Shown here piece after piece: positions 1,653-49,165 of a stretch of DNA of 54,754 nucleotides; the stretch's first letter is position 1, and each line of letters starts with the position of its first letter. The position numbers were made by a program, and so were the translations under genes. Source of the stretch: Roseiflexus sp. (GTDB lineage: Bacteria > Chloroflexota > Chloroflexia > Chloroflexales > Roseiflexaceae); the NCBI GenBank assembly GCA_025062325.1, contig JANXAL010000124.1, positions 1 to 54,754 of the forward strand, read 5' to 3'. Under the pieces are notes generated by a model that was given only the letters and a program-made list of their open reading frames with translations, did not search any database and had not been told where the DNA came from.

Positions 1653-2474
1653 ATGAATCTTGTCCTTCGTTCATCCCGCAACCCTCACAGTCATCTCACT
1701 GTTAAAGAACGCACGCATGCCTCCTTCCCCATCAGGTATTTGCTCAAGCGAGGGCTGATCACAGGACGGATACTGGACTTCGGATGTGGATTGGGTATCG
1801 ATGTCAACTTCTTGCGACAGCAGGGATACGATGTTACCGGTTATGATCCTCACTATGCGCCTGAGATTCCGAGTGGCAAGTTCGACACAGTTGTATGCCT
1901 GTACGTTTTAAACGTGCTGCTTCCAGAAGAGCAGTCCCATGTCCTGATGGCTGTCTCGGAGTTACTGCGTCCAACAGGATGCGCATACTTCGCTGTTCGC
2001 CGCGATATTCAATTCGATGGATTTCGCCGCCACGTCAAACACCAAACGAACGTTTATCAGTGCAACGTTACGTTACCGTATCCAAGCATCCTGCGCACCG
2101 CTCACTGTGAGATCTATGGATATCGCCACTATAACCAGTTGCCTTCAACCACTCCCTGCCCTTTTTGCGCTCCAGCAAGCAATTCTGAGCTACTGACCGA
2201 GTCTGCGAGCGCCTATGCTATCTTGGGGAGTCCCTGCTCTACATCTGGTCACGCGCTCATTGTACCCAAGAAGCACGTTAGCTACATTGATCTTTCACCT
2301 CATGACAGAAATGCCTGCTGGCAGGTCGTAGATCGCGTGAAGATGCTGCTTTCTGACCGTTTCCGCCCGGCTGGTTTCAGGATAAAGATTGGTAATGGCC
2401 TGAACGCACTATGTGCTGGCGAGCACGGGTGCGTCCATGTCATTCCCTGGTATACTGGGGGACAAGGAGAGTAG
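1653..2474 (+). CDS. Methyltransferase-HIT domain fusion protein
   Basis: The ATG at 1653 has GGAG 9 bases upstream; a TTG at 1599 lacks an SD. The 273-residue product has two parts. Residues about 20-150 form a Rossmann-type class I SAM-dependent methyltransferase, with the glycine-rich LDFGCGLG loop near 41-48 and a following acidic segment. Residues about 167-273 resemble a HIT domain: a CPFC pair at 169-172, the HALIVPKKH strand at 200-208, and a C-terminal AGEHGCVHVIPWYTG segment. In HIT proteins this last segment is normally H-x-H-x-H, with the middle histidine as nucleophile; here those positions are H258, C260 and H262. The usual three residues between AGQ and the first His are also missing. 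Coupled to the HNH gene at 472-1596. Substrate unknown. Confidence 0.72.
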   Translation: MNLVLRSSRNPHSHLTVKERTHASFPIRYLLKRGLITGRILDFGCGLGIDVNFLRQQGYDVTGYDPHYAPEIPSGKFDTVVCLYVLNVLLPEEQSHVLMAVSELLRPTGCAYFAVRRDIQFDGFRRHVKHQTNVYQCNVTLPYPSILRTAHCEIYGYRHYNQLPSTTPCPFCAPASNSELLTESASAYAILGSPCSTSGHALIVPKKHVSYIDLSPHDRNACWQVVDRVKMLLSDRFRPAGFRIKIGNGLNALCAGEHGCVHVIPWYTGGQGE

Positions 2475-2920
2475 TCGAGATCGCTCCACTTCACGACCGA
2501 GACGGGCGATACAACACAGAAGCGTGCTGGAAAATCTACCCCCGTAAGCCCCGTCTCAAGTGTAGGTTTCTCAGGACGCGGCGCAGGTTTTTTGCGTCTC
2601 GACGCCTTTTTGCCCTCATCCTCCTGCTCACAAGTGCGGGGTTTAGGAGCGTGATAACGGGGTTTGTCACATCTCGACGCCTTCTTCCCCTCGCATCCCC
2701 TGCTCACGAGTGTAGAGTTTTTGTGGTGCGGTAGATGTTTTTCCGCGTCCTGACACCCTTTTCCCCTCATTCCCCCGTCCCCTTCTCCCACCCTCACAGG
2801 TGTAGCGTTTTTGCAGCGCGATGGATGCTTTCCGCGTTCCGACCCCCTACCCCCTTTCTCCCATATGGGGAGAGGGTGTCCTGATGCCTGGGAACGAGCG
2901 ATGCAACGCGAGGGCTTGCC

Positions 2921-2977
2921 AAAAATCTACACTTGTGAGCATCCCTCTACCCCCTTCTTCTCAAGTGTAGGCTTTTA
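2921..2977. repeat. Paired AAATCTACACTTGTGAG / CTCAAGTGTAG element
   Basis: The clearest copy of a dispersed inverted repeat. The left arm begins AAAAATCTACACTTGTGAG (2921-2939). The right arm CTCAAGTGTAGGCTTTT ends at 2977, with about 20 pyrimidine-rich bases between. Less perfect copies lie elsewhere in 2475-3400 and near 54187 and 54345. Confidence 0.6.
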
Positions 2978-3035
2978 GGGTGCGAAATGAGTTTGCCGCA
3001 TCCTGCCGCCTTTTCCCCCTCATCCTCCCTGCCCC

Positions 3036-3058
3036 CCTTCTCCCACTAGGGGAGAAGG
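3036..3058. repeat. CTTCTCCC palindromic repeat, copy 1
   Basis: Perfect 9-bp stem CCTTCTCCC/GGGAGAAGG with loop ACTAG, followed by a conserved tail (aggtaggggcgtcctg). Copies 2 and 3 are at 3138-3160 and 54262-54284; a degenerate version is near 2847. Confidence 0.7.
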
Positions 3059-3137
3059 AGGTAGGGGCGTCCTGCTGCCTGAAACGGGCAATGCGACGTG
3101 AGGGCTGACCAAAAAAGTCTACCCTTGTGAGCTACCC

Positions 3138-3160
3138 CCTTCTCCCACTAGGGGAGAAGG
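3138..3160. repeat. CTTCTCCC palindromic repeat, copy 2
   Basis: Same stem and loop as copy 1, including a related downstream tail (gagtaggggcgttctg). The shared flank shows that the repeated unit is longer than the palindrome. Confidence 0.7.
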
Positions 3161-3649
3161 GAGTAGGGGCGTTCTGTTGCCTGAAACGGGCGATGTAACG
3201 GAGGGGGAGTTGAGGCGTCCTAATGCCCAAGACAGATGATGCAACGCAGAAGCCTGCTGGAAACCCTGCTCTCGTAAGCATCCTTCCTGCCCTCTTCTAC
3301 CGCACGCGGGAGAAGGAGGCGATTGGGCGTGCTAATGTCCAAAACGAGTAACACAATGTAACACAATGTATTGAGTTGCCAGGAAAATCTACGCTTGTGA
3401 CCTGGCAGACAGTGAACGCCGTCGAGTGCGCGTGAGCGCAGGGCGCGGCGCAGAGCGCAAGAGGCGGTTCTCAGACCCGCCCTCACGCTGTCTGGAGCGT
3501 GATGATAGGCAGCACAGGCCGCGCTGTAGGACTCGCTTCGTGCCGGGCAGGTCTCAAGTTTTCATCGGATGCTGCGGGCTGATGAAGGAAAATCAGGGAC
3601 GCTGCGGTCTGATGGACGTTGAGAACATAATCCGGTATTGCTGGATTTA

Positions 3650-3693
3650 GCCCGCGCAGGCGGGCTTCGCAACCGTAGCCCGCCTGCGCGGGC
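3650..3693. repeat. 16-bp perfect inverted repeat
   Basis: GCCCGCGCAGGCGGGC (3650-3665) pairs perfectly with GCCCGCCTGCGCGGGC (3678-3693) across 12 bases. REP-like; no T-tract, so it is not an obvious terminator. Confidence 0.75.
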
Positions 3694-3841
3694 GGGTGGG
3701 CGGATAGCGGAATATATTTCAAAAGCCTTCAACCGCCCGGCGCGAGAGCGCATAGCGGAGCATATAACCATACAATCGCCAGGCAAAAAGGCTCCATCTG
3801 CCCGCAGCGCCGATTCCCGCACGTTCACCGCCTGATTGCTC

Positions 3842-3896
3842 ACACAAAGACACAGAGGCGCAAAGGAGCATTATCCTCGCCTCCGTGCCTTTGTGT
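3842..3896. repeat. 19-bp near-perfect inverted repeat (ACACAAAG type)
   Basis: The arm 3842-3860 begins ACACAAAGACACAGAGG and pairs with 3878-3896 with two mismatches. Repeats containing CACAAAG-CACAGAG are, from memory, common in intergenic DNA of several bacterial phyla. It lies just downstream of the coxM stop on the minus strand and might act as a 3' barrier, but has no strong T-run. Confidence 0.6.
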
Positions 3897-3949
3897 ATGT
3901 TCACCTGTGAGGCGTGAGTCCTAGCCTCTAACTCCTAACCCTTGAACCA

Positions 3950-4816
3950 CTACCCCCTTGCCCGTCGCACCGCCTCGGTCAGCGCACGGCGGGTAAAGAC
4001 CTTCACCATCGCCTGGCGGTACTCTGCAGAAGCGTGGATGTCGCCCAGATAATCGATCCCGTCGCCAGCAGCGTTTGCCGCCGCCGCAATGGCTGCGTCG
4101 TCGCCGGATGTGCCGACGAGCGCAGCTTCGGCGGCTGGCTGCCGCACCGCTACTGAACCAGCGCCGGTGACGCCAATGCGACAGGCGGAGACGGTCCCGT
4201 TGTCGAATTTGACATATGCCGCCACTCCGACGATGGCATAGCGCGACGCCGGATGGCGCAGTTTGGCGTATGCTGCGCCTTCGCCCTTGCCCAGAATGGG
4301 GAAAGTGACCGACGTGATGACTTCATCCGACGACAGCGCCGTGGTCAGCATTCCCACGAACATGTTGTCAGCGGCAATGCTGCGCGCACCGTTCGGTCCC
4401 ATGACGTTAATTGTCGCGCCAAGCGCCAGCGCGACGGCAGGGGGGTCAGCCGCAGGGTCAGCGTGCGCCAGTGAGCCGCCTATTGTTCCGCGATTGCGCA
4501 CCTGGATGTCGCCGATCTGACCGACGCACTCGGCGAGCACTGGGCAGCCAGCGCGCACCGCTTCATTCCTTGCGATCTCATAGTAGGTCGACCCTGCGCC
4601 GATCACTAGACGATCACCGTTCGACGTGATGCCCTTCAGTTCCGACACGCGACTGATATCGATCAGCACAGCGGGTTGCGCCAGGCGCAGCTTCAGCGCT
4701 GGCAGCAGCGAGTGACCGCCCGCCAGAAGCTTGGCGTCCTCGCCGTGCTGCTGGAGCAGCCCGATAGCCTCGTTGACCGTTTTGGCTGCATAATACTGAA
4801 AGGGTGCCGGTATCAT
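3950..4816 (-). CDS. coxM: CO dehydrogenase-like FAD-binding medium subunit (CoxM family)
   Basis: A 288-residue member of the FAD subunit family of molybdenum hydroxylases (xanthine oxidase family). It shows the two flavin-binding motifs: AGGHS at residues 32-36 and TIGG at 110-113 in NRGTIGG, followed by SLAHADPAADPP. The length is normal for CoxM (about 285). In the complex this subunit takes electrons from the iron-sulfur subunit and passes them to quinones or another acceptor. It is the last gene of the minus-strand coxG-S-L-M cluster, separated from coxL by 247 bp that contain a hairpin. The ATG is preceded by GAGGAGC, a good SD. The family is clear; the substrate is not settled because the large subunit is form II. 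Confidence 0.93.
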   Translation of the reverse strand: MIPAPFQYYAAKTVNEAIGLLQQHGEDAKLLAGGHSLLPALKLRLAQPAVLIDISRVSELKGITSNGDRLVIGAGSTYYEIARNEAVRAGCPVLAECVGQIGDIQVRNRGTIGGSLAHADPAADPPAVALALGATINVMGPNGARSIAADNMFVGMLTTALSSDEVITSVTFPILGKGEGAAYAKLRHPASRYAIVGVAAYVKFDNGTVSACRIGVTGAGSVAVRQPAAEAALVGTSGDDAAIAAAANAAGDGIDYLGDIHASAEYRQAMVKVFTRRALTEAVRRARG

Positions 4817-4993
4817 GAGAGATGCTCCTCAATTCCAGGTAAGCGTCTAATAAGACGCGCTGCGACAATTTTCCTGGAGAGACTAGCCAACCGCTGACCA
4901 ATGTTGATCGCTCCTGCGAGCGTGGCGTGTGATGGAACACGGATGTAGGCAAGTCGAGATAGATTGAGATGGATCGGCAGTAGATCCATTTCT

Positions 4994-5023
4994 GGCGGAC
5001 GGGAAGTCCGCTCCCCGTCCGCC
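4994..5023. repeat. Hairpin between coxL and coxM
   Basis: GGCGGACGGG (4994-5003) pairs perfectly with CCCGTCCGCC (5014-5023) around a 10-nt loop. It lies in the 247-bp spacer between coxL and coxM, which otherwise shows no gene. It could set differential expression or mRNA stability, but has no T-tract. Confidence 0.6.
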
Positions 5024-5063
5024 AACGCCTGCTCTATCTGCCGGGTTCGCGTTGATTGCTCCG

Positions 5064-7445
5064 TCAGGACGCCGCCTGCGCTGCGCGGATGGCTTTCCAC
5101 ACGTTTTCGGGCGTCGCCGGCATCTGCATATGCTTGACGCCAAATGGCGAGAGCGCATCGATAACCGCGTTCATCACCGCTTGCGCGCTGGCAATCGTCC
5201 CTGCCTCGCCTGCGCCCTTCACCCCCAGCGGGTTGACCGGACTGGGCGTGACGGTGCGGGCTGTCTCAAATGGCGGCAGCATATGCGCAGCAGGCACAGC
5301 GTAGTCCATAAGCGTACCGGTGACCAGTTGCCCGTTCTCATCGTACACGGCGCGCTCATAGAGCGCCTGCGCAATACCCTGGGCGATGCCGCCGTGGATC
5401 TGGCCATCGACAATCATCGGGTTGATGACATTGCCACAATCGTCAACCGCTACGTAGCGCTTCAGATCCACAATGCCGGTGTCCGGGTCCACCTCGACGA
5501 TGGCGATATGCGTGCCAAAGGGGAAGGTGCAGTTCGGCGGGTCGTAGTACGTTGTTTCGTCGAGGAAGGGTTCCATGCCTTCCGGCAGGTCGTATGCCAC
5601 TGATGCCTGGAGCGCGATCTCCGCTAGCGTCTTGAAGCGGTCGGGCGAACCTTTGACGTAGACGCGCCCGTTTTCGTACACCATGTCGTCGGGATTAGCT
5701 TCGAGCATATGCGCGGCGATCTTCTTTGCCTTCTCCTTGATCTTCGCCACGCTGCGGTAGACGGCCATGCCGCCGACTGCCAGCGAGCGCGAGCCATAGG
5801 TGCCGTAGCCGAATGGCGTGCCGGCTGTGTCGGAGTGTTCGATCACCACGTCGTCATACGGCACGCCAAGTTCATCGGCGACAATCTGTGCAAAGGTGGT
5901 CTCGACCCCCTGACCATGCGGCAGCGAACCGGTCGTGACAACGACTTTGCCCGTCAGGTGAACGCGCACGTTGGCGCTCTCCCAGAGACCAGCGCCCCAC
6001 CCTTCGCCGGGGAGACCAATCCACTTGCTTGGCGCCACGCCGCAGATTTCGACATACGAACTGATGCCGATCCCGAGGTATTTGCCCTGCTTACGCGCCT
6101 CCTCCTGCTGCTTACGGAATTCGGCGTATCCGACAATCTCGAGCGCCTTGTTGAGCGCCGCCTCGTAGTTGCCGCTGTCATACGGCAGCAGCCCCAGCCC
6201 ATTATCATACGGGAAGGCGTCGGGCGGAATAAAATTCTTGCGCCGCACCTCCGCCGGGTCCATCCCGATCTCGGCGGCAAAGCGATCCACCATGCGCTCG
6301 ATCAAGTACGACGCTTCAGGACGACCGGCGCCGCGGTAGGCATCGACCATCGCCGTATTGGTGTAGACGCCGTACACCTTGACGTAAGCGGCAGGGATGC
6401 GGTACGCGCCGGTGATAATCCGACCGTAGAGGGTTGTCGGAATGCCAGGCGCAATCGTGCTCAGATAGGCGCCGAGGTTCGCGTAGGTAGTGACGCGTAG
6501 CCCGGTAATTGTGCCGTCGCGGTTGCCAGCAAGCTCAACGTCGGTGATGTGGTCGCGCCCGTGGGTCGAATACTTGTAATTCTCGCTGCGGTCTTCAACG
6601 AATTTCACCGGACGACCGATCTTGCGCGCTGCCCACATCGTAAACGCCATGTCGTTGTAGCAAAAGATCTTCTGCCCGAATCCACCGCCGACATTCGGCG
6701 AAATGACGCGCAGTTTCGTTTCGGGAATGCCGAAAACGAACGCCGTCAGCACTAGACGCATCACGTGCGGCGCCTGCGAAGTGGTCCAGAGCGTGAACTC
6801 GCCAGTTGCTGGCTCGTAACGCGCAATCGAACCGCGGGTTTCCATGGGGGTGGGAATGAGGCGCTGATTGATAATCTGTTCGCGCACCACCACCTCAGCC
6901 GCGGCGATAGCAGCATCGGCTTTCGCCTTATCGCCCGCCTCCCATTCCATGACGATATTGTTGGGCGCGTTCTCGTGGAGCTGCGGCGCGCCTGGCTCAG
7001 TGGCTTTCTTGGCGTCCACCACCACCGGCAGCGGCTCATACTCGACCTCAATCAGGTCGCAGGCATCACGCGCAATATAGCGATCCTCGGCAATCACCAG
7101 CGCGACCGGATCGCCAACGAAGTGCACCTCACCAACCGCCAGGACGCGCGGCGTGTTAACGTTGTTCTTCACGCGCCCCGCCTGCCAGGCGCATGGGAGC
7201 GGATTGAGGTCAAGCATGTCTTCGCCGGTAAAGACGGCGACCACCCCCGGATGGGCTTTTGCCTTACTCGTGTCAATGGACTTGATCTTTGCGTGGGCGT
7301 AGGGGCTGCGCAGCACACAGGCGTGCGTCATACCCGGGAGTTTGATGTCATCGAGGAAGCTCCCCTGTCCCGTAATCAACTGCGGGTCTTCGCGGCGCTT
7401 GATTGCCTGACCCACCAGCTTCGTTGGCATCGTTTCAGCTGTCAT
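5064..7445 (-). CDS. coxL: CO dehydrogenase-like molybdenum large subunit, form II
   Basis: A 793-residue molybdopterin-binding large subunit, the normal size for CoxL. Residues 369-375 read AYRGAGR, the active-site loop of form II enzymes; proven CO dehydrogenases (form I) carry AYxCSFR with a copper-binding Cys. Other signatures are NVGGGFGQK near 251-259 and GVKGAGEAGT near the C-terminus, containing the catalytic Glu. Form II enzymes oxidise various compounds, and CO activity is unproven for most, so 'CO dehydrogenase-like' is the safe name. It lies between coxS (81 bp upstream) and coxM. An internal ATG at codon 6 is an alternative start. Confidence 0.93.
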   Translation of the reverse strand: MTAETMPTKLVGQAIKRREDPQLITGQGSFLDDIKLPGMTHACVLRSPYAHAKIKSIDTSKAKAHPGVVAVFTGEDMLDLNPLPCAWQAGRVKNNVNTPRVLAVGEVHFVGDPVALVIAEDRYIARDACDLIEVEYEPLPVVVDAKKATEPGAPQLHENAPNNIVMEWEAGDKAKADAAIAAAEVVVREQIINQRLIPTPMETRGSIARYEPATGEFTLWTTSQAPHVMRLVLTAFVFGIPETKLRVISPNVGGGFGQKIFCYNDMAFTMWAARKIGRPVKFVEDRSENYKYSTHGRDHITDVELAGNRDGTITGLRVTTYANLGAYLSTIAPGIPTTLYGRIITGAYRIPAAYVKVYGVYTNTAMVDAYRGAGRPEASYLIERMVDRFAAEIGMDPAEVRRKNFIPPDAFPYDNGLGLLPYDSGNYEAALNKALEIVGYAEFRKQQEEARKQGKYLGIGISSYVEICGVAPSKWIGLPGEGWGAGLWESANVRVHLTGKVVVTTGSLPHGQGVETTFAQIVADELGVPYDDVVIEHSDTAGTPFGYGTYGSRSLAVGGMAVYRSVAKIKEKAKKIAAHMLEANPDDMVYENGRVYVKGSPDRFKTLAEIALQASVAYDLPEGMEPFLDETTYYDPPNCTFPFGTHIAIVEVDPDTGIVDLKRYVAVDDCGNVINPMIVDGQIHGGIAQGIAQALYERAVYDENGQLVTGTLMDYAVPAAHMLPPFETARTVTPSPVNPLGVKGAGEAGTIASAQAVMNAVIDALSPFGVKHMQMPATPENVWKAIRAAQAAS

Positions 7446-42827: not shown

Positions 42828-43835
42828 TCAAGGCGAAACTTCATGGGCGAAATGGCAGGCCGACCAGTGGCCGGACGTTTTCTCCTCGAATGCCGGTTCA
42901 ACCTCGCGGCAGATCTCGCGCGCCATCCAGCAGCGCGGATGGAAGCGACACCCCTTCGGCGGGTTGATCGGGCTAGGCACATCCCCCTGCAGGATGATCC
43001 GTTCGCGCCGGATGTTCGGGTTAGGGATGGGAATGGCGGAAATCAGCGCTTTGGTGTACGGATGGAGCGGACGGCGGAAGAGTTCGGTGCGATCCGCCAG
43101 TTCAACTATCTTCCCCAGGTACATCACGCCGACACGGTTGCTGATATGCTCGACGACGCTGAGGTTGTGCGCGATGAACAGATACGTCAGCCCGAACTCT
43201 TGTTGCAGATTACGCAGCAGATTGAGCACCTGCGACTGAATCGACACATCAAGCGCCGACACTGGCTCGTCGCACACGATCAGCTTGGGGTTCATCACCA
43301 GCGCGCGCGCGATGCCGATGCGCTGCCGCTGCCCGCCGGAGAATTCGTGCGGGAAGCGTTCCATGTGGCTCGGATGCATACCCACCTTCGCCAGCACCTC
43401 ACGCACCCGCTCACGACGTTCAGCTTTGCTGCCGATGCCATGAATGGTCAACCCTTCCGCCACGCTCTCGCCAATCGTCATACGCGGGTCGAGCGAGGCA
43501 TACGGGTCCTGAAACACGATCTGCATGTCACGGCGGAGCGCCTTCAACTGACTGCCAGAGGCGGCGAGCACGTCTTTGCCCTCGAAGATCACCTCGCCAT
43601 CGGTCGCCTTTTCGAGGCGCAGGATCGTGCGTCCGGTCGTGGTCTTGCCGCACCCGCTCTCGCCAACCAGTCCGAGCGTTTCGCCGCGTTTGATCGTGAA
43701 ACTGACGCCGTCGACCGCCCGGACAATTGCGACCGTGCGGCGCAGGATTCCGCCTTTGATCGGAAAATGCTTGACCAGGTTATTGACTTCCAGCAGCGTA
43801 TCGCTCGATACGCTGCGCTGTGCTCCAGCAGCCAT
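42828..43835 (-). CDS. Oligopeptide-type ABC transporter ATPase, OppF/DppF type (first pair)
   Basis: The ATG at 43835 has AAGGAA upstream; the frame up to 43904 overlaps the previous gene without an SD. 335 residues: [16 protein letters not shown]-loop [15 protein letters not shown], signature [18 protein letters not shown], Walker [15 protein letters not shown], and a Cys-containing OppF end ([14 protein letters not shown]). Tightly packed behind the 43852 ATPase (17 bp). Confidence 0.94.
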
Positions 43836-43851
43836 AGAATCACGTTCCTTG

Positions 43852-44898
<1,047 letters not shown>

Positions 44899-44902
44899 TC
44901 TC

Positions 44903-45907
44903 TTACAGTTTCAGGCGCGGATCGAGCGCATCGCGCAACCCATCGCCAATAAAGTTGAACGCCAGCGAACAGAGAAAGATCGGCAGACCGGGGATGAGCG
45001 GCATCCACGGGTGATTGAACATATAACTGGTGGCGAAGCCCATCATATTGCCCCAGGTCGGCGTTGGGTCCTGCACGCCGAAGCCAAGGAAACTGATCGC
45101 CACCTCACTCACCAGCGCGCTGTTGAGACCGAGCGTAAACGCCACGATCAGCGGCGGGAAAGCGTTCGGAAAGACGTGCTTGATCAAGATCCAGGCATTC
45201 GATCCGCCAAGCGCGCGCGCCGACTCGATATACTGCATTTCGCGCACCTGGAGCGCCATGCCGCGCATCAGGCGCGCCACGCCGACCCAACCGAGCGACG
45301 CAAGCACCAGGATCAGCAGCGCCACCTGGGTCGCCTCGCGGTTAGGCACTGCCATAATCCAGGCAACCGGCCCAATGATCCAGGTCGGCAGCACGATCAG
45401 ATCAGCGTTCTGGATCATAATCGCGCTGAGAATCAGCAGGATTGGCAGATCCGGGATCGTCGCCACGAACTCCATAATCCGGCTGATGGTATTATCGACC
45501 CAACCGCCGAAGAACCCCGACAGCAAACCCAGGATGGAGCCAATAATCGCCACCAGCGTCGTGACCGAAATCGCCACCATAAGCGATACGCGCGCCGCAT
45601 AGATCACGCGGGTGAAGAAGTCGCGTCCCAAGTGGTCGGTGCCGAGGATGTGGAGTCGTCCCGTTGCCGGATCGACGCTCATCGGCGGCAGGCGGGTGCG
45701 GTTCAGCCCGATATCGTCACGCGGAAAGGGCGCAATCCATGGCGCCAGGATCGATGCACCAAAGATGATGATCAGAATAGCGAGGCTGGCCATCGCCAGG
45801 CGGTGGCGGCGAAACCGGCGAAAGACAACCGCCCACTGTCCTTCGGATCGGGGTTGCAATCGCTCGATAGCGCCAGGCGCCGCTGGCGTCGATGTCGTGG
45901 TAGCCAT
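44903..45907 (-). CDS. Oligopeptide-type ABC transporter permease (OppC/DppC)
   Basis: 334 residues. A long polar N-terminus with one helix (MASLAILIIIFGASILAPWIA) precedes the permease core of five further helices. The EAA-like loop (EYIESARALGGSNAWILIKHVFPNAFPPLIV) contacts the ATPases. The periplasmic loop LGTDHLGRDFFTRVIYAARVSL is characteristic of OppC. AGGAG precedes the ATG. It forms the channel with the OppB-type permease encoded 12 bp upstream. Confidence 0.95.
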   Translation of the reverse strand: MATTTSTPAAPGAIERLQPRSEGQWAVVFRRFRRHRLAMASLAILIIIFGASILAPWIAPFPRDDIGLNRTRLPPMSVDPATGRLHILGTDHLGRDFFTRVIYAARVSLMVAISVTTLVAIIGSILGLLSGFFGGWVDNTISRIMEFVATIPDLPILLILSAIMIQNADLIVLPTWIIGPVAWIMAVPNREATQVALLILVLASLGWVGVARLMRGMALQVREMQYIESARALGGSNAWILIKHVFPNAFPPLIVAFTLGLNSALVSEVAISFLGFGVQDPTPTWGNMMGFATSYMFNHPWMPLIPGLPIFLCSLAFNFIGDGLRDALDPRLKL

Positions 45908-45919
45908 GGGTTATGCTCC

Positions 45920-47122
45920 TCACGTGAGCCGGATGCGCGGATCGACGACGGTGTAGAGAATATCAGAGACCAGGTATCCAATCAGCACCAGAACAGTGCT
46001 GATAAACAGGATCGCCATCGCCACCGTATAATCGCTGTTACCCAGCGCATCAACCAGCAACCGCCCCATGCCGGGCCAGTTGAACACCGATTCGGTCACC
46101 GCCGCGCCCGCCACCAGCGTCGGCAGCACGCCCGCAAGCAAGGTCACAAACGGGATCAGCGCATTCCGCAGTGCATGCTTCATAATCACCGCGCGCTCCC
46201 GCACGCCCTTGGCGCGTGCCGTGCGCACATAATCCTGCCGCAGCACCTCAAGCATACTGGAGCGGATGAAGCGGCTCCAGGACGCGATATTGAAGAAGGT
46301 CAGCACTGCACACGGCATAATGAAGCGCAGCGTGCGATCCAGCGCTGAACCGGCCTGCACCGTGCCAATCCAGGGGATCGTATAATCGCGAATGCCCTGC
46401 ACGCCGCCCGACGGCAGGTATGGCAACCCGGCGTCCTTTGCCAGCACCGAAAAGACCAGGATCGCCATCACGCCCATGAAGAGGGTCGGCAGCGATGAGC
46501 CGACGAACGTGATGCCAGTCATTGCATAGTCAAACCGCGAATACTGGCGCACTGCCGAGTAGATGCCGATTGGCACGCCAATCAGAATAGCCAACAGTGT
46601 CGAAACCCCCATCAACTGGATCGTATAAGGCAGTCGGCTCATCAGCAGATCGCTGATTGGGCGGTCGCGCGCAATCTGCTGCGACAACCCAAAGTCGCCG
46701 AACAGAATGCCGCGGCTGGTGCGGCGTTCCGCCAGATCCGCCAGGGTAACGGCGCGCACGCACCCCTCCTCCCGGATCTCGACCGTGCCGTCCGGGTAGC
46801 GCAGACGCACCTGACCGGGAATCGCGCATCCCACAACGGTATCCGGCGGAATCAGGTTCACGCCGCCGATGTGAATAGGACCGGCAGGGAAGCCTGCCAG
46901 CCAGCGGGTAAAGCGGATAGGCAGATAGAGGTCAAGTTCATACCGCGCTTTCAAACGCACGATGTCTTCTTCCGTCACTCGGCGCTGCCCGGTATTCTGC
47001 ATCTGCTGCAAAAACAACAACGGCCCGCCCGGCGCAAGGTACAACAATGAATAGCCGAGCATTGCCGAAAGGATGGTGACAATCACCATCTGGATCAAGC
47101 GCCGAACGAGATATGTCGTCAT
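45920..47122 (-). CDS. Oligopeptide-type ABC transporter permease (OppB/DppB)
   Basis: 400 residues, somewhat longer than usual OppB (about 310-340). The first helix (MVIVTILSAMLGYSLLYLAPGGP) is standard. The large loop between helices 1 and 2 contains an insertion (about residues 60-140) with a Cys pair (CAIPG, EEGCV). The core ends with the EAA loop YVRTARAKGVRERAVIMKHALRNALIPFVT and the C-terminal DILYTVVDPRIRL. It pairs with the permease at 44903. A hairpin and a possible -10 box lie between it and the substrate-binding protein gene. Confidence 0.94.
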   Translation of the reverse strand: MTTYLVRRLIQMVIVTILSAMLGYSLLYLAPGGPLLFLQQMQNTGQRRVTEEDIVRLKARYELDLYLPIRFTRWLAGFPAGPIHIGGVNLIPPDTVVGCAIPGQVRLRYPDGTVEIREEGCVRAVTLADLAERRTSRGILFGDFGLSQQIARDRPISDLLMSRLPYTIQLMGVSTLLAILIGVPIGIYSAVRQYSRFDYAMTGITFVGSSLPTLFMGVMAILVFSVLAKDAGLPYLPSGGVQGIRDYTIPWIGTVQAGSALDRTLRFIMPCAVLTFFNIASWSRFIRSSMLEVLRQDYVRTARAKGVRERAVIMKHALRNALIPFVTLLAGVLPTLVAGAAVTESVFNWPGMGRLLVDALGNSDYTVAMAILFISTVLVLIGYLVSDILYTVVDPRIRLT

Positions 47123-47221: not shown

Positions 47222-49165
47222 TTACCGGACGAACAGGTTGAAGTCCATGTGCTCCCAGGTCGGGCTGGCGTCGGTCTTGACGTTGATCTTGCCTTCCTGC
47301 GCCGCCTTGATCACCGTCTCCACCTCCGGGCCGGCGCCGAGCGTCGCCTTCTCCAGAATGTCGACTTCGCCTGTCAGCAGCGCCGCTACAGCAGCATTAG
47401 TGTCGGCGAAGAACTGGATGACGACGTTCTTGACCTTCGGCGCGCCGAGGACAAAGTTCGGGTTCGCCTCGAACCGCATGAACTCTTTCTTCTTCCACTC
47501 TTTCAGGATGTAGGGACCGTATCCCATCGGCAGCTCGGCGATCTCTGGCAGCGTCGACCACTCTTTGGCAGGCACATCCGCCAGTTTCCGCCCGTCCGAA
47601 ATGGTGCGGTGCGAGGGGTAGCCGCCGTAGGGAGCGAGGAAGTAGGTTGGCCACTGCACGCCGGGCAGGAACTTGATCGTGTAGCTGGTGTCGCTGTTGA
47701 AGGTCACGCCGTTGAGATTATCGTGCGACTCGCAGAAGGTGAAGCTAGTCGCACCCGACTCACGATCACAGTTGATCTTCACTGCCAGTTCCAGGTCGGC
47801 CTTCTTCAGCGGCTCGCCGTCCGACCACTTAATGCCCTTGATCAGGTCGTAGGTGACGGTGAGCTGCTTCATCTTCACCGTGCCGCTCTCATACTTGATC
47901 GTCTCGCCGTCGGAGTTGACGATCTCCACGCCTGGCTTGAGCTCGACAGCAGCGCCTTCTGTATTCCACACCTTGTCGCCCTCTTTGACTTCGACGACTT
48001 CATTCTTCGCCTTGCCGCTCTCGATCGTCGAGAGACCATCTTGCAACACCGGCTGGAAGTCGTAGCTGTACTGCGTGGACAACACACCGAAAACAAGCTG
48101 CGCTGCCTGAACCTGCACTGCTGCGCTCTCGACTAGCGAGAACATCGAGGCTGGCTCCTGGGTGAAGCCCAGAATAATGGTGTCGCCATTGTCGGTGCGC
48201 CCCCACTCATGGGCATTAGCAGTGATATATTCGGTCGGGTCAGGCTTCAAGCCGGTCAGCGCCTTGTTCCAGGCATACGCCTCCAGGCGCTGGAACAGCG
48301 GCAGGCTCACCATGTCCTTGGTGAACTCGACCTGGAACGCTTTGTAATGCTTGATGCGCTCCTCGCGGTTCAGCGTGTTGTTGGCAGCCACAATCGCCCG
48401 GCTGGCAGTCTCGTTGCACCAGCCCATGTAGTTCTGGCCCTCCCAGTTGTTGTCCGGCAGCGGAATCTGGTCGCAGGCATAGAGCGAACGGCCGCCCGGA
48501 TCCGCCTCACCGACCCACGCAAACGCGCCGAGCTCGAAGTCGCGCCGGCGCAGACCGGAGGCGCCGCCGAACCACCAGGATGCCGGGGCATGCTTGCGAA
48601 TGATCTGGATGCCGCAGTTATCGAGCAACTGTTTCTCCAGCACGGTTGCCCAGGTGATGCGGAACTGCGCATTAGTTGTGGTGAATTCAAGCGCCAGCGG
48701 CACACCGTCCTTCGTGCGAACCCGCTGACCTTCCGCCAGTTTCCAGCCCGCCTCTTCGAGCAGCGCCTTTCCCTTCTCCGGGTCGAACGGATAGGTCACG
48801 ATGCCGTCCGCCTCGGTGGCCACTGCCCAGTGCGTTTTTGGCAGGAAGGTATCCATCAGCAGTTGTTGCTGCTGCTCCGGTGTCAGGAAGCTATAGACCG
48901 ACTGAATCAGTTCGAGTCGGTTGGTGCAGTAGGCGATCGCCTGGCGCACGCGCACATCGCTGAGGATCGGGTGCGGCGTTCTGAAGGCGCCAGTTGGCGT
49001 CGGCGCAGCTTCCGGAACCGCTGTCACGACGACCGTAACCGGCGGCGCCGTGACGACGACCGTTTCGCGGACCGGCGCCTGCGCCGGCGCTGCACAGGCC
49101 GCAAGGATCGGCGCAATAAGCGCAAACAGCATCGCAAGCGCGATTTTCCTGTCGAGAATCTTCAT
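47222..49165 (-). CDS. ABC transporter substrate-binding lipoprotein, circularly permuted family 5 type
   Basis: 647 residues. AAAGGAG precedes the ATG by 10. A lipoprotein signal ends in LAAC (Cys24). Family 5 binding proteins normally begin with an ...GFTQEPAS... strand and end after a PLF....YAWN...GLKP region. Here residues about 65-322 hold the usual C-terminal half first: HPILSDVRVRQAIAYCTNR, PFDPEKGKALLEEAGW, SLPLFQRLEAYAWNKALTGL. Residues about 328-647 hold the usual N-terminal half second: DTIILGFTQEPASM, GIKWSDGEPLKKADLELA, LPMGYGPYILKEWKKKEFMR, ADTNAAVAALLTGEVDILE, ending DASPTWEHMDFNLFVR. In DppA-like proteins that ending is immediately followed by the ...DVRVRQA segment. Both halves are present once, so this is a circular permutation, not truncation. 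Exported, ligand unknown. Confidence 0.88.
   Translation of the reverse strand: MKILDRKIALAMLFALIAPILAACAAPAQAPVRETVVVTAPPVTVVVTAVPEAAPTPTGAFRTPHPILSDVRVRQAIAYCTNRLELIQSVYSFLTPEQQQQLLMDTFLPKTHWAVATEADGIVTYPFDPEKGKALLEEAGWKLAEGQRVRTKDGVPLALEFTTTNAQFRITWATVLEKQLLDNCGIQIIRKHAPASWWFGGASGLRRRDFELGAFAWVGEADPGGRSLYACDQIPLPDNNWEGQNYMGWCNETASRAIVAANNTLNREERIKHYKAFQVEFTKDMVSLPLFQRLEAYAWNKALTGLKPDPTEYITANAHEWGRTDNGDTIILGFTQEPASMFSLVESAAVQVQAAQLVFGVLSTQYSYDFQPVLQDGLSTIESGKAKNEVVEVKEGDKVWNTEGAAVELKPGVEIVNSDGETIKYESGTVKMKQLTVTYDLIKGIKWSDGEPLKKADLELAVKINCDRESGATSFTFCESHDNLNGVTFNSDTSYTIKFLPGVQWPTYFLAPYGGYPSHRTISDGRKLADVPAKEWSTLPEIAELPMGYGPYILKEWKKKEFMRFEANPNFVLGAPKVKNVVIQFFADTNAAVAALLTGEVDILEKATLGAGPEVETVIKAAQEGKINVKTDASPTWEHMDFNLFVR

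Follow-up and report, generated by a model that had tools for sequence, protein, structure and literature searches.

Can the binding protein of a bacterial ABC importer be found in nature with its two halves in exchanged order, and still be a working protein? The question is raised by a gene of Roseiflexus sp. in the stretch of DNA analysed here (contig JANXAL010000124.1, 54,754 nucleotides at full length, hereafter the window), in which a real open reading frame of 647 amino acids runs along the minus strand from 49165 to 47222. An earlier note, made from the letters of the window, had described its product as a lipoprotein with a signal at Cys24, followed by the C-terminal half of a family 5 (SBP_bac_5) substrate-binding protein, a short linker and the N-terminal half, with its end at MDFNLFVR. 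This description stands, with a signal peptide and a lipobox Cys24 present and with the swapped Pfam matches and the sequence in agreement on the order of the halves. The gene and its parts are as follows (basis in brackets).

47222..49165, minus strand: whole gene, a circularly permuted family 5 (SBP_bac_5) substrate-binding lipoprotein (Pfam, re-joined test)
49094..49165, minus strand: signal peptide and lipobox, residues 1-24 (LIAPILAAC, Cys24) (sequence)
48980..49093, minus strand: low-complexity tether, residues 25-62, predicted to be mostly disordered (pLDDT)
48203..48979, minus strand: C-terminal half of a normal family 5 protein, placed first, residues 63-321 (Pfam, structure match)
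48185..48202, minus strand: joint from old C-terminus to old N-terminus, six residues, 322-327 (GRTDNG) (sequence)
47225..48184, minus strand: N-terminal half of a normal family 5 protein, placed second, residues 328-647 (Pfam, structure match)
47225..47284, minus strand: C-terminal strand region, residues 628-647, with the invariant motif S-x-T-W-E-H-x-D-x-N-L (alignment, model, stop-position count)

The half that is placed first corresponds to the second lobe of the normal protein together with its final return into the first lobe; it opens with T63-P64-H65-P66 and closes near W321 (in letters, T63-PHPILSDVRVRQAIAY ... NAHEW321). The half that is placed second runs from D328 (D328-TIILGFTQEP) to MDFNLFVR647, where the stop codon follows. 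The tether region, for which the AlphaFold2 model gives a pLDDT below 50 over residues 13-58, evolves faster than the body of the protein in comparison with near relatives.

Order of the halves in sequence and predicted structure

The only Pfam-A family matching the protein is SBP_bac_5 (PF00496), and it does so in two stretches of swapped order, with residues 427-643 aligning to profile positions 9-207 and residues 60-228 to positions 205-357 (whole-protein E-value 4.5e-44; 151.5 bits in the native order, above the gathering cut-off of 32.4 bits). The same swap is seen with phmmer against PDB sequences, where residues 491-645 match positions 152-311 of the 2d5w chain and residues 68-304 match positions 322-561. 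Collinearity with SBP_bac_5 is absent from the native order and appears only once the halves have been re-joined (residues 324-647 followed by 63-323). The re-joined protein yields a single collinear Pfam match (104-490 to profile 9-357) scoring 163.2 bits against the 151.5 bits of the native order, as well as single collinear matches to the PDB sequences of 2d5w (169-566 to 153-561) and DppA (112-544 to 61-467). This is the behavior that the earlier note had anticipated for a permutation, namely one collinear match of full-length type for the rearranged order and two swapped matches for the native one. The genome encodes seven other SBP_bac_5 proteins, all of which are collinear, the split match being confined to the permuted protein. 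The product carries the halves of one family swapped, each present once and in a single reading frame, as in a natural permutation, and is a permuted derivative rather than a canonical member of SBP_bac_5.

An AlphaFold2 model, computed without templates and with permuted sequences as its only input, reached a pLDDT of 83.6 and a pTM of 0.80, with stretches of low confidence at residues 194-207 and 238-244. Superposition on solved family 5 halves gave Z-scores of 21-23 at approximately 2.2-2.5 A. In VIA-align, residues 64-325 of the model match the C-terminal half of AppA (1xoc, 274-520; Z 22.6, 2.5 A, 243 residues), and residues 325-636 match the N-terminal half of CtaP (5isu, 37-279; Z 21.1, 2.2 A, 239 residues). 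Each half of the model hence matches its own half of solved family 5 structures, as expected of the bilobed cluster C fold, and the structure prediction, a check proposed in the earlier note, comes out in favor of a permutation. The best matches listed by Foldseek are binding proteins of family 5 type, aligned over roughly half of their length; few matches to the N-terminal half emerge from such sequential structure searches because one half fills the list, which is expected for a permutation. The pTM of 0.80 suggests that the two halves pack together as they do in the normal protein. Going by the lobe layout of DppA and OppA, we place the cut directly behind the first of the lobe-crossing strands, and the long C-terminal strand of the model (628-642) would be that first crossover strand.

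The protein shares with OppA, DppA, AppA and NikA (SBP_bac_5, cluster C) homology over the whole body, the division into two halves, the fold of each half and the type of operon. It differs from them in its swapped halves, in termini that would lie just after the first lobe crossover and in two clade-specific cysteines. The earlier note had known of no natural permutation in this family, and for family 5 (cluster C) this holds in the open-licence papers, among which no description of one was found; in cluster B, however, the solved structure of TpMglB-2 (Tp0684), a glucose-binding lipoprotein of Treponema pallidum, is circularly permuted (PMC4990184). In this glucose/galactose binder the first three strands of one lobe have moved to the end, adding a fourth crossing of the hinge, and the permuted topology is shared by relatives grouped as 'cluster Bc', most of which its authors consider to be probably tethered, with anchoring as a possible driver of the change (PMC4990184). 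Both cases are natural permutations of membrane-tethered ABC binding proteins that are conserved in related organisms. On the other hand, TpMglB-2, which is able to bind its ligand, belongs to another sequence family, and the Roseiflexus protein is cut into near-equal halves, the homology of both of which is clear. The Roseiflexus protein also falls outside cluster Bc, since SBP_bac_5 is its sole Pfam match and no cluster B (type I) sugar-binder family matches it. It is a known class of protein with a new, conserved topology, and apparently the first clear case of natural circular permutation to be described among the family 5 (peptide-type) binding proteins. It also serves as a warning that profile annotation and sequential structure aligners present such proteins as half matches.

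Conservation across the Chloroflexota

The source genome is distributed over 143 contigs and many of its relatives are metagenome bins, so that two gene fragments wrongly joined by assembly or binning might be invoked to explain the swapped order. Such an artefact is, nevertheless, vanishingly improbable. Of 400 Chloroflexota genomes drawn evenly from the phylum, 43 have the permuted arrangement, 13 of these outside the taxonomic order of the source, and the orthologue comparison proposed in the earlier note thereby shows an arrangement common to other members of the phylum. Each of the five genomes sampled from the same genus has a full-length permuted orthologue, as do many that are more distant, and 49 loci from named assemblies carry such orthologues, among these Roseiflexus, Chloroflexus islandicus, Candidatus Chloroploca, Oscillochloris, Candidatus Viridilinea, Caldilineaceae and Anaerolineae. 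The Anaerolineae copy sits on a complete chromosome (CP059258.1), and the conserved order in single-contig genomes (G003, G045, G047 and G064) is already enough to refute an artefact. Furthermore, independent assemblies agree in order, joint and stop even where identity has fallen to about 50%, and synonymous changes far outnumber amino-acid changes. The misassembly that the earlier note had named as fatal to its reading is contradicted by dozens of independent assemblies with the same order and stop, and profile, structure prediction, order in other Chloroflexota and the exclusion of misassembly all favor the permutation that it had proposed.

The architecture of the permuted protein is well-conserved, with a mean column identity of 61% in an alignment of 43 permuted sequences. 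Among 65 distinct permuted sequences, the permuted domain is preceded by a lipobox in 62, the stop falls exactly four residues past WEHxDxN in 61, and the joint between the halves measures 5-6 residues in the 54 for which the pattern was measurable. Relative to near relatives, dN/dS is approximately 0.10-0.12 over the gene and 0.06-0.14 for the individual halves, and these sequence comparisons indicate a gene under purifying selection. A degenerate copy or pseudogene, considered as an alternative, is ruled out by the dN/dS of about 0.1. The gene embodies a true circular permutation of natural origin, old and conserved, that has persisted for a very long time and is readily recognized in cultured phototrophs such as Chloroflexus islandicus.

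Outside the phylum, a search of plasmid sequences returned 329 records with weak partial matches, the best of them in Ponticoccus and none covering 80% of the query. The sole record labelled as neither Chloroflexota nor kin is a permuted orthologue (L083) from a metagenome bin named Gracilibacteria; in trees its place is among Chloroflexaceae/Oscillochloridaceae sequences, and the bin or its label is probably wrong.

Origin of the permuted gene

In a tree computed with the halves re-joined and rooted on other SBP_bac_5 proteins of the source genome, the permuted proteins form one clade (SH-aLRT 100) nested among normal-order proteins. Its sister is the normal-order protein L086 (SH-aLRT 97 for the pair), encoded by a genome from the same order of Chloroflexota (G048) and also the closest normal-order protein that came out of the phylum search. 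L086 resembles the permuted proteins in this sister position, in its place in the operon and in a Cys466/Cys478 pair, and departs from them in its normal half order and in the lack of Cys80 and Cys184. Across the 400 Chloroflexota genomes, the re-joined query found no normal-order orthologue at E <1e-75, all matches below this threshold being permuted halves or broken copies of these.

The identity of L086 to the permuted protein is 47% in the C-terminal half and 34% in the N-terminal half, a difference that could hint at separate histories, and hence at a fusion of two different half-genes or of paralogue halves, permuted in layout and not in history. The same possibility was raised by the authors of TpMglB-2 for their own protein. 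Against it, trees of the separate halves both place the permuted clade beside L086 (SH-aLRT 85 for the N-terminal half and 93 for the C-terminal half), and the N-terminal half is also the less similar one in comparison with other normal-order proteins (approximately 26% versus 36%), so that it simply evolves faster. We regard the fusion as quite unlikely: the half trees lend moderate support to a descent of both halves from one ancestral gene, and a single permutation of one formerly normal-order gene is the simplest account. Tandem duplication followed by loss of the outer halves, the route suggested in the earlier note, is a possible path to this single permutation. No tandem intermediate (N-C-N-C) was seen in the loci examined, and, given the age of the event, its route can no longer be read from the DNA.

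Operon context, paired cysteines and proposed function

The permuted gene heads a complete Opp/Dpp-type operon, with permeases and ATPases downstream on the same strand.

45920..47122, minus strand: OppB/DppB-type permease, 400 aa (PF00528, Opp-family NCBIfam models)
44903..45907, minus strand: OppC/DppC-type permease, 334 aa (PF00528, OppC_N PF12911)
43852..44898, minus strand: OppD/DppD-type ATPase, 348 aa (PF00005, oligo_HPY PF08352)
42831..43904, minus strand: second ATPase-like open frame at the OppF/DppF position (open frame, position)

Three more ATPase-like open frames follow the first ATPase between 40742 and 43904, seemingly making four ATPase genes in a row, and the same run is present at a locus of the same genus (L095), where the gene at the OppF/DppF place shares 40% identity with the first ATPase. 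Operons with the permuted gene keep the arrangement binding protein-permease-permease-ATPase both in Chloroflexia and in Anaerolineae, and the equivalent operon place is taken by normal-order relatives in G048, G044, G033 and G026. The permB permeases of permuted operons constitute a clade of their own (99) and the permC permeases do so weakly (78), while the tree of the first ATPase does not separate permuted from normal-order operons. None of the NCBIfam equivalogs Opp4A, NikA, DppA and SapA fits the protein (the best, Opp4A, scores 121 bits against a cut-off of 650); such low scores are partly expected, because the permutation splits the match.

We conclude from gene sequence and context that the product would be a working binding protein of an oligopeptide/dipeptide-type ABC importer, for which a peptide, as the default guess, is the most likely substrate. 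Some permuted paralogues (L088 and L089) are solitary and lack a lipobox, one of them with an extra C-terminal region, and these could be taken to mean that the transport duty has been lost, with the protein acting as a sensor or scavenger receptor and another binding protein serving the transporter. This is improbable for the source gene and its orthologues, which, in Anaerolineae as well as in Chloroflexia, lie immediately upstream of the two permeases and the ATPases, occupy the operon place of the normal-order protein (L086, L090, L093 and L098) and evolve under purifying selection. Each of these four normal-order operons continues, after the ATPases, with another binding-protein gene, likewise of normal order but different from the first.

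Two cysteines distinguish the permuted proteins from their normal-order relatives.

48926..48928, minus strand: Cys80, invariant in permuted members and absent from normal-order relatives (alignment)
48614..48616, minus strand: Cys184, invariant in permuted members and absent from normal-order relatives (alignment)

All 46 permuted sequences compared have both, even the paralogue L088 at 39% identity, whereas the 13 normal-order relatives compared, all of them from the Chloroflexota, have neither and carry Gly/Ala and Val/Ile/Leu at the respective positions. Cys80 lies at the end of the new first helix and Cys184 at the end of helix 167-184, and a Cys80-Cys184 disulfide probably fastens the new N-terminal helix. 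Two other pairs are shared with normal-order proteins, Cys231/Cys250 with 12 of the 13 and Cys466/Cys478 with a single one, which its motif CDPNSGATSFITC identifies as L086.

Taken together, we are highly confident that the gene encodes a functional, tethered family 5 (cluster C) importer binding protein that arose through one circular permutation in an ancestor within the Chloroflexota. In the proposed mechanism, the old C-terminus and N-terminus, neighbors in the first lobe, would have been fused by the six-residue joint, and the chain would have been opened just past the strand leading over from the first lobe to the second, so that the new N-terminal tether would leave the second lobe beside the hinge. 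The crossover strand would now end in the new C-terminus and be held by pairing, with no covalent link to the helix that formerly followed it. Cys80 and Cys184 would have been gained with the permutation, their probable disulfide pinning the new N-terminal helix, and ligand would bind in between the two lobes before being passed on to the OppB/OppC-type permeases, as it is by the ordinary members of family 5. It is conceivable, if rather doubtful, that the permutation was adaptive instead of a neutral accident, with tether, hinge break and cysteine staple altering lobe movement and permease docking. A tether moved to the second lobe by the hinge, together with the loss of covalent continuity at the first crossover, might then affect the opening and closing of the lobes as well as the docking of the protein on permeases that have co-evolved with it. 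The permuted proteins in any case provide a natural experiment on whether tether position and hinge continuity matter for ABC importers, and an evolution-tested scaffold for biosensor design, a field that seeks permuted binding proteins.

Several variant and broken copies accompany the full-length orthologues. L088 (4387-6330, minus strand; G004 contig 146) has a hydrophobic N-terminal segment, lacks a lipobox and shows no transporter genes on the stretch examined, and a similar paralogue, 37% identical, is found on contig 104 of G393. In the single-contig genome G054, a frameshift within the second half breaks the orthologue (L094) into overlapping frames, one of 480 aa (3303-4742) and one of 210 aa (4714-5343). 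In G296 (L148, minus strand), the orthologue is split nearly exactly at the new joint (1048-2031 and 2057-3205), through either a frameshift error or a true two-chain organization. The permuted paralogue L089 (4035-6500, minus strand; G050 contig 92) carries an extra C-terminal region of approximately 150 residues, which ends in YLPIINR and has no Pfam match. A degenerate copy of 415 aa in the single-contig genome G003 (L087, 4431-5675, minus strand) has lost most of its second half, its first half running straight into WEHIDFNL and then into a C-terminal region that resembles that of L089.
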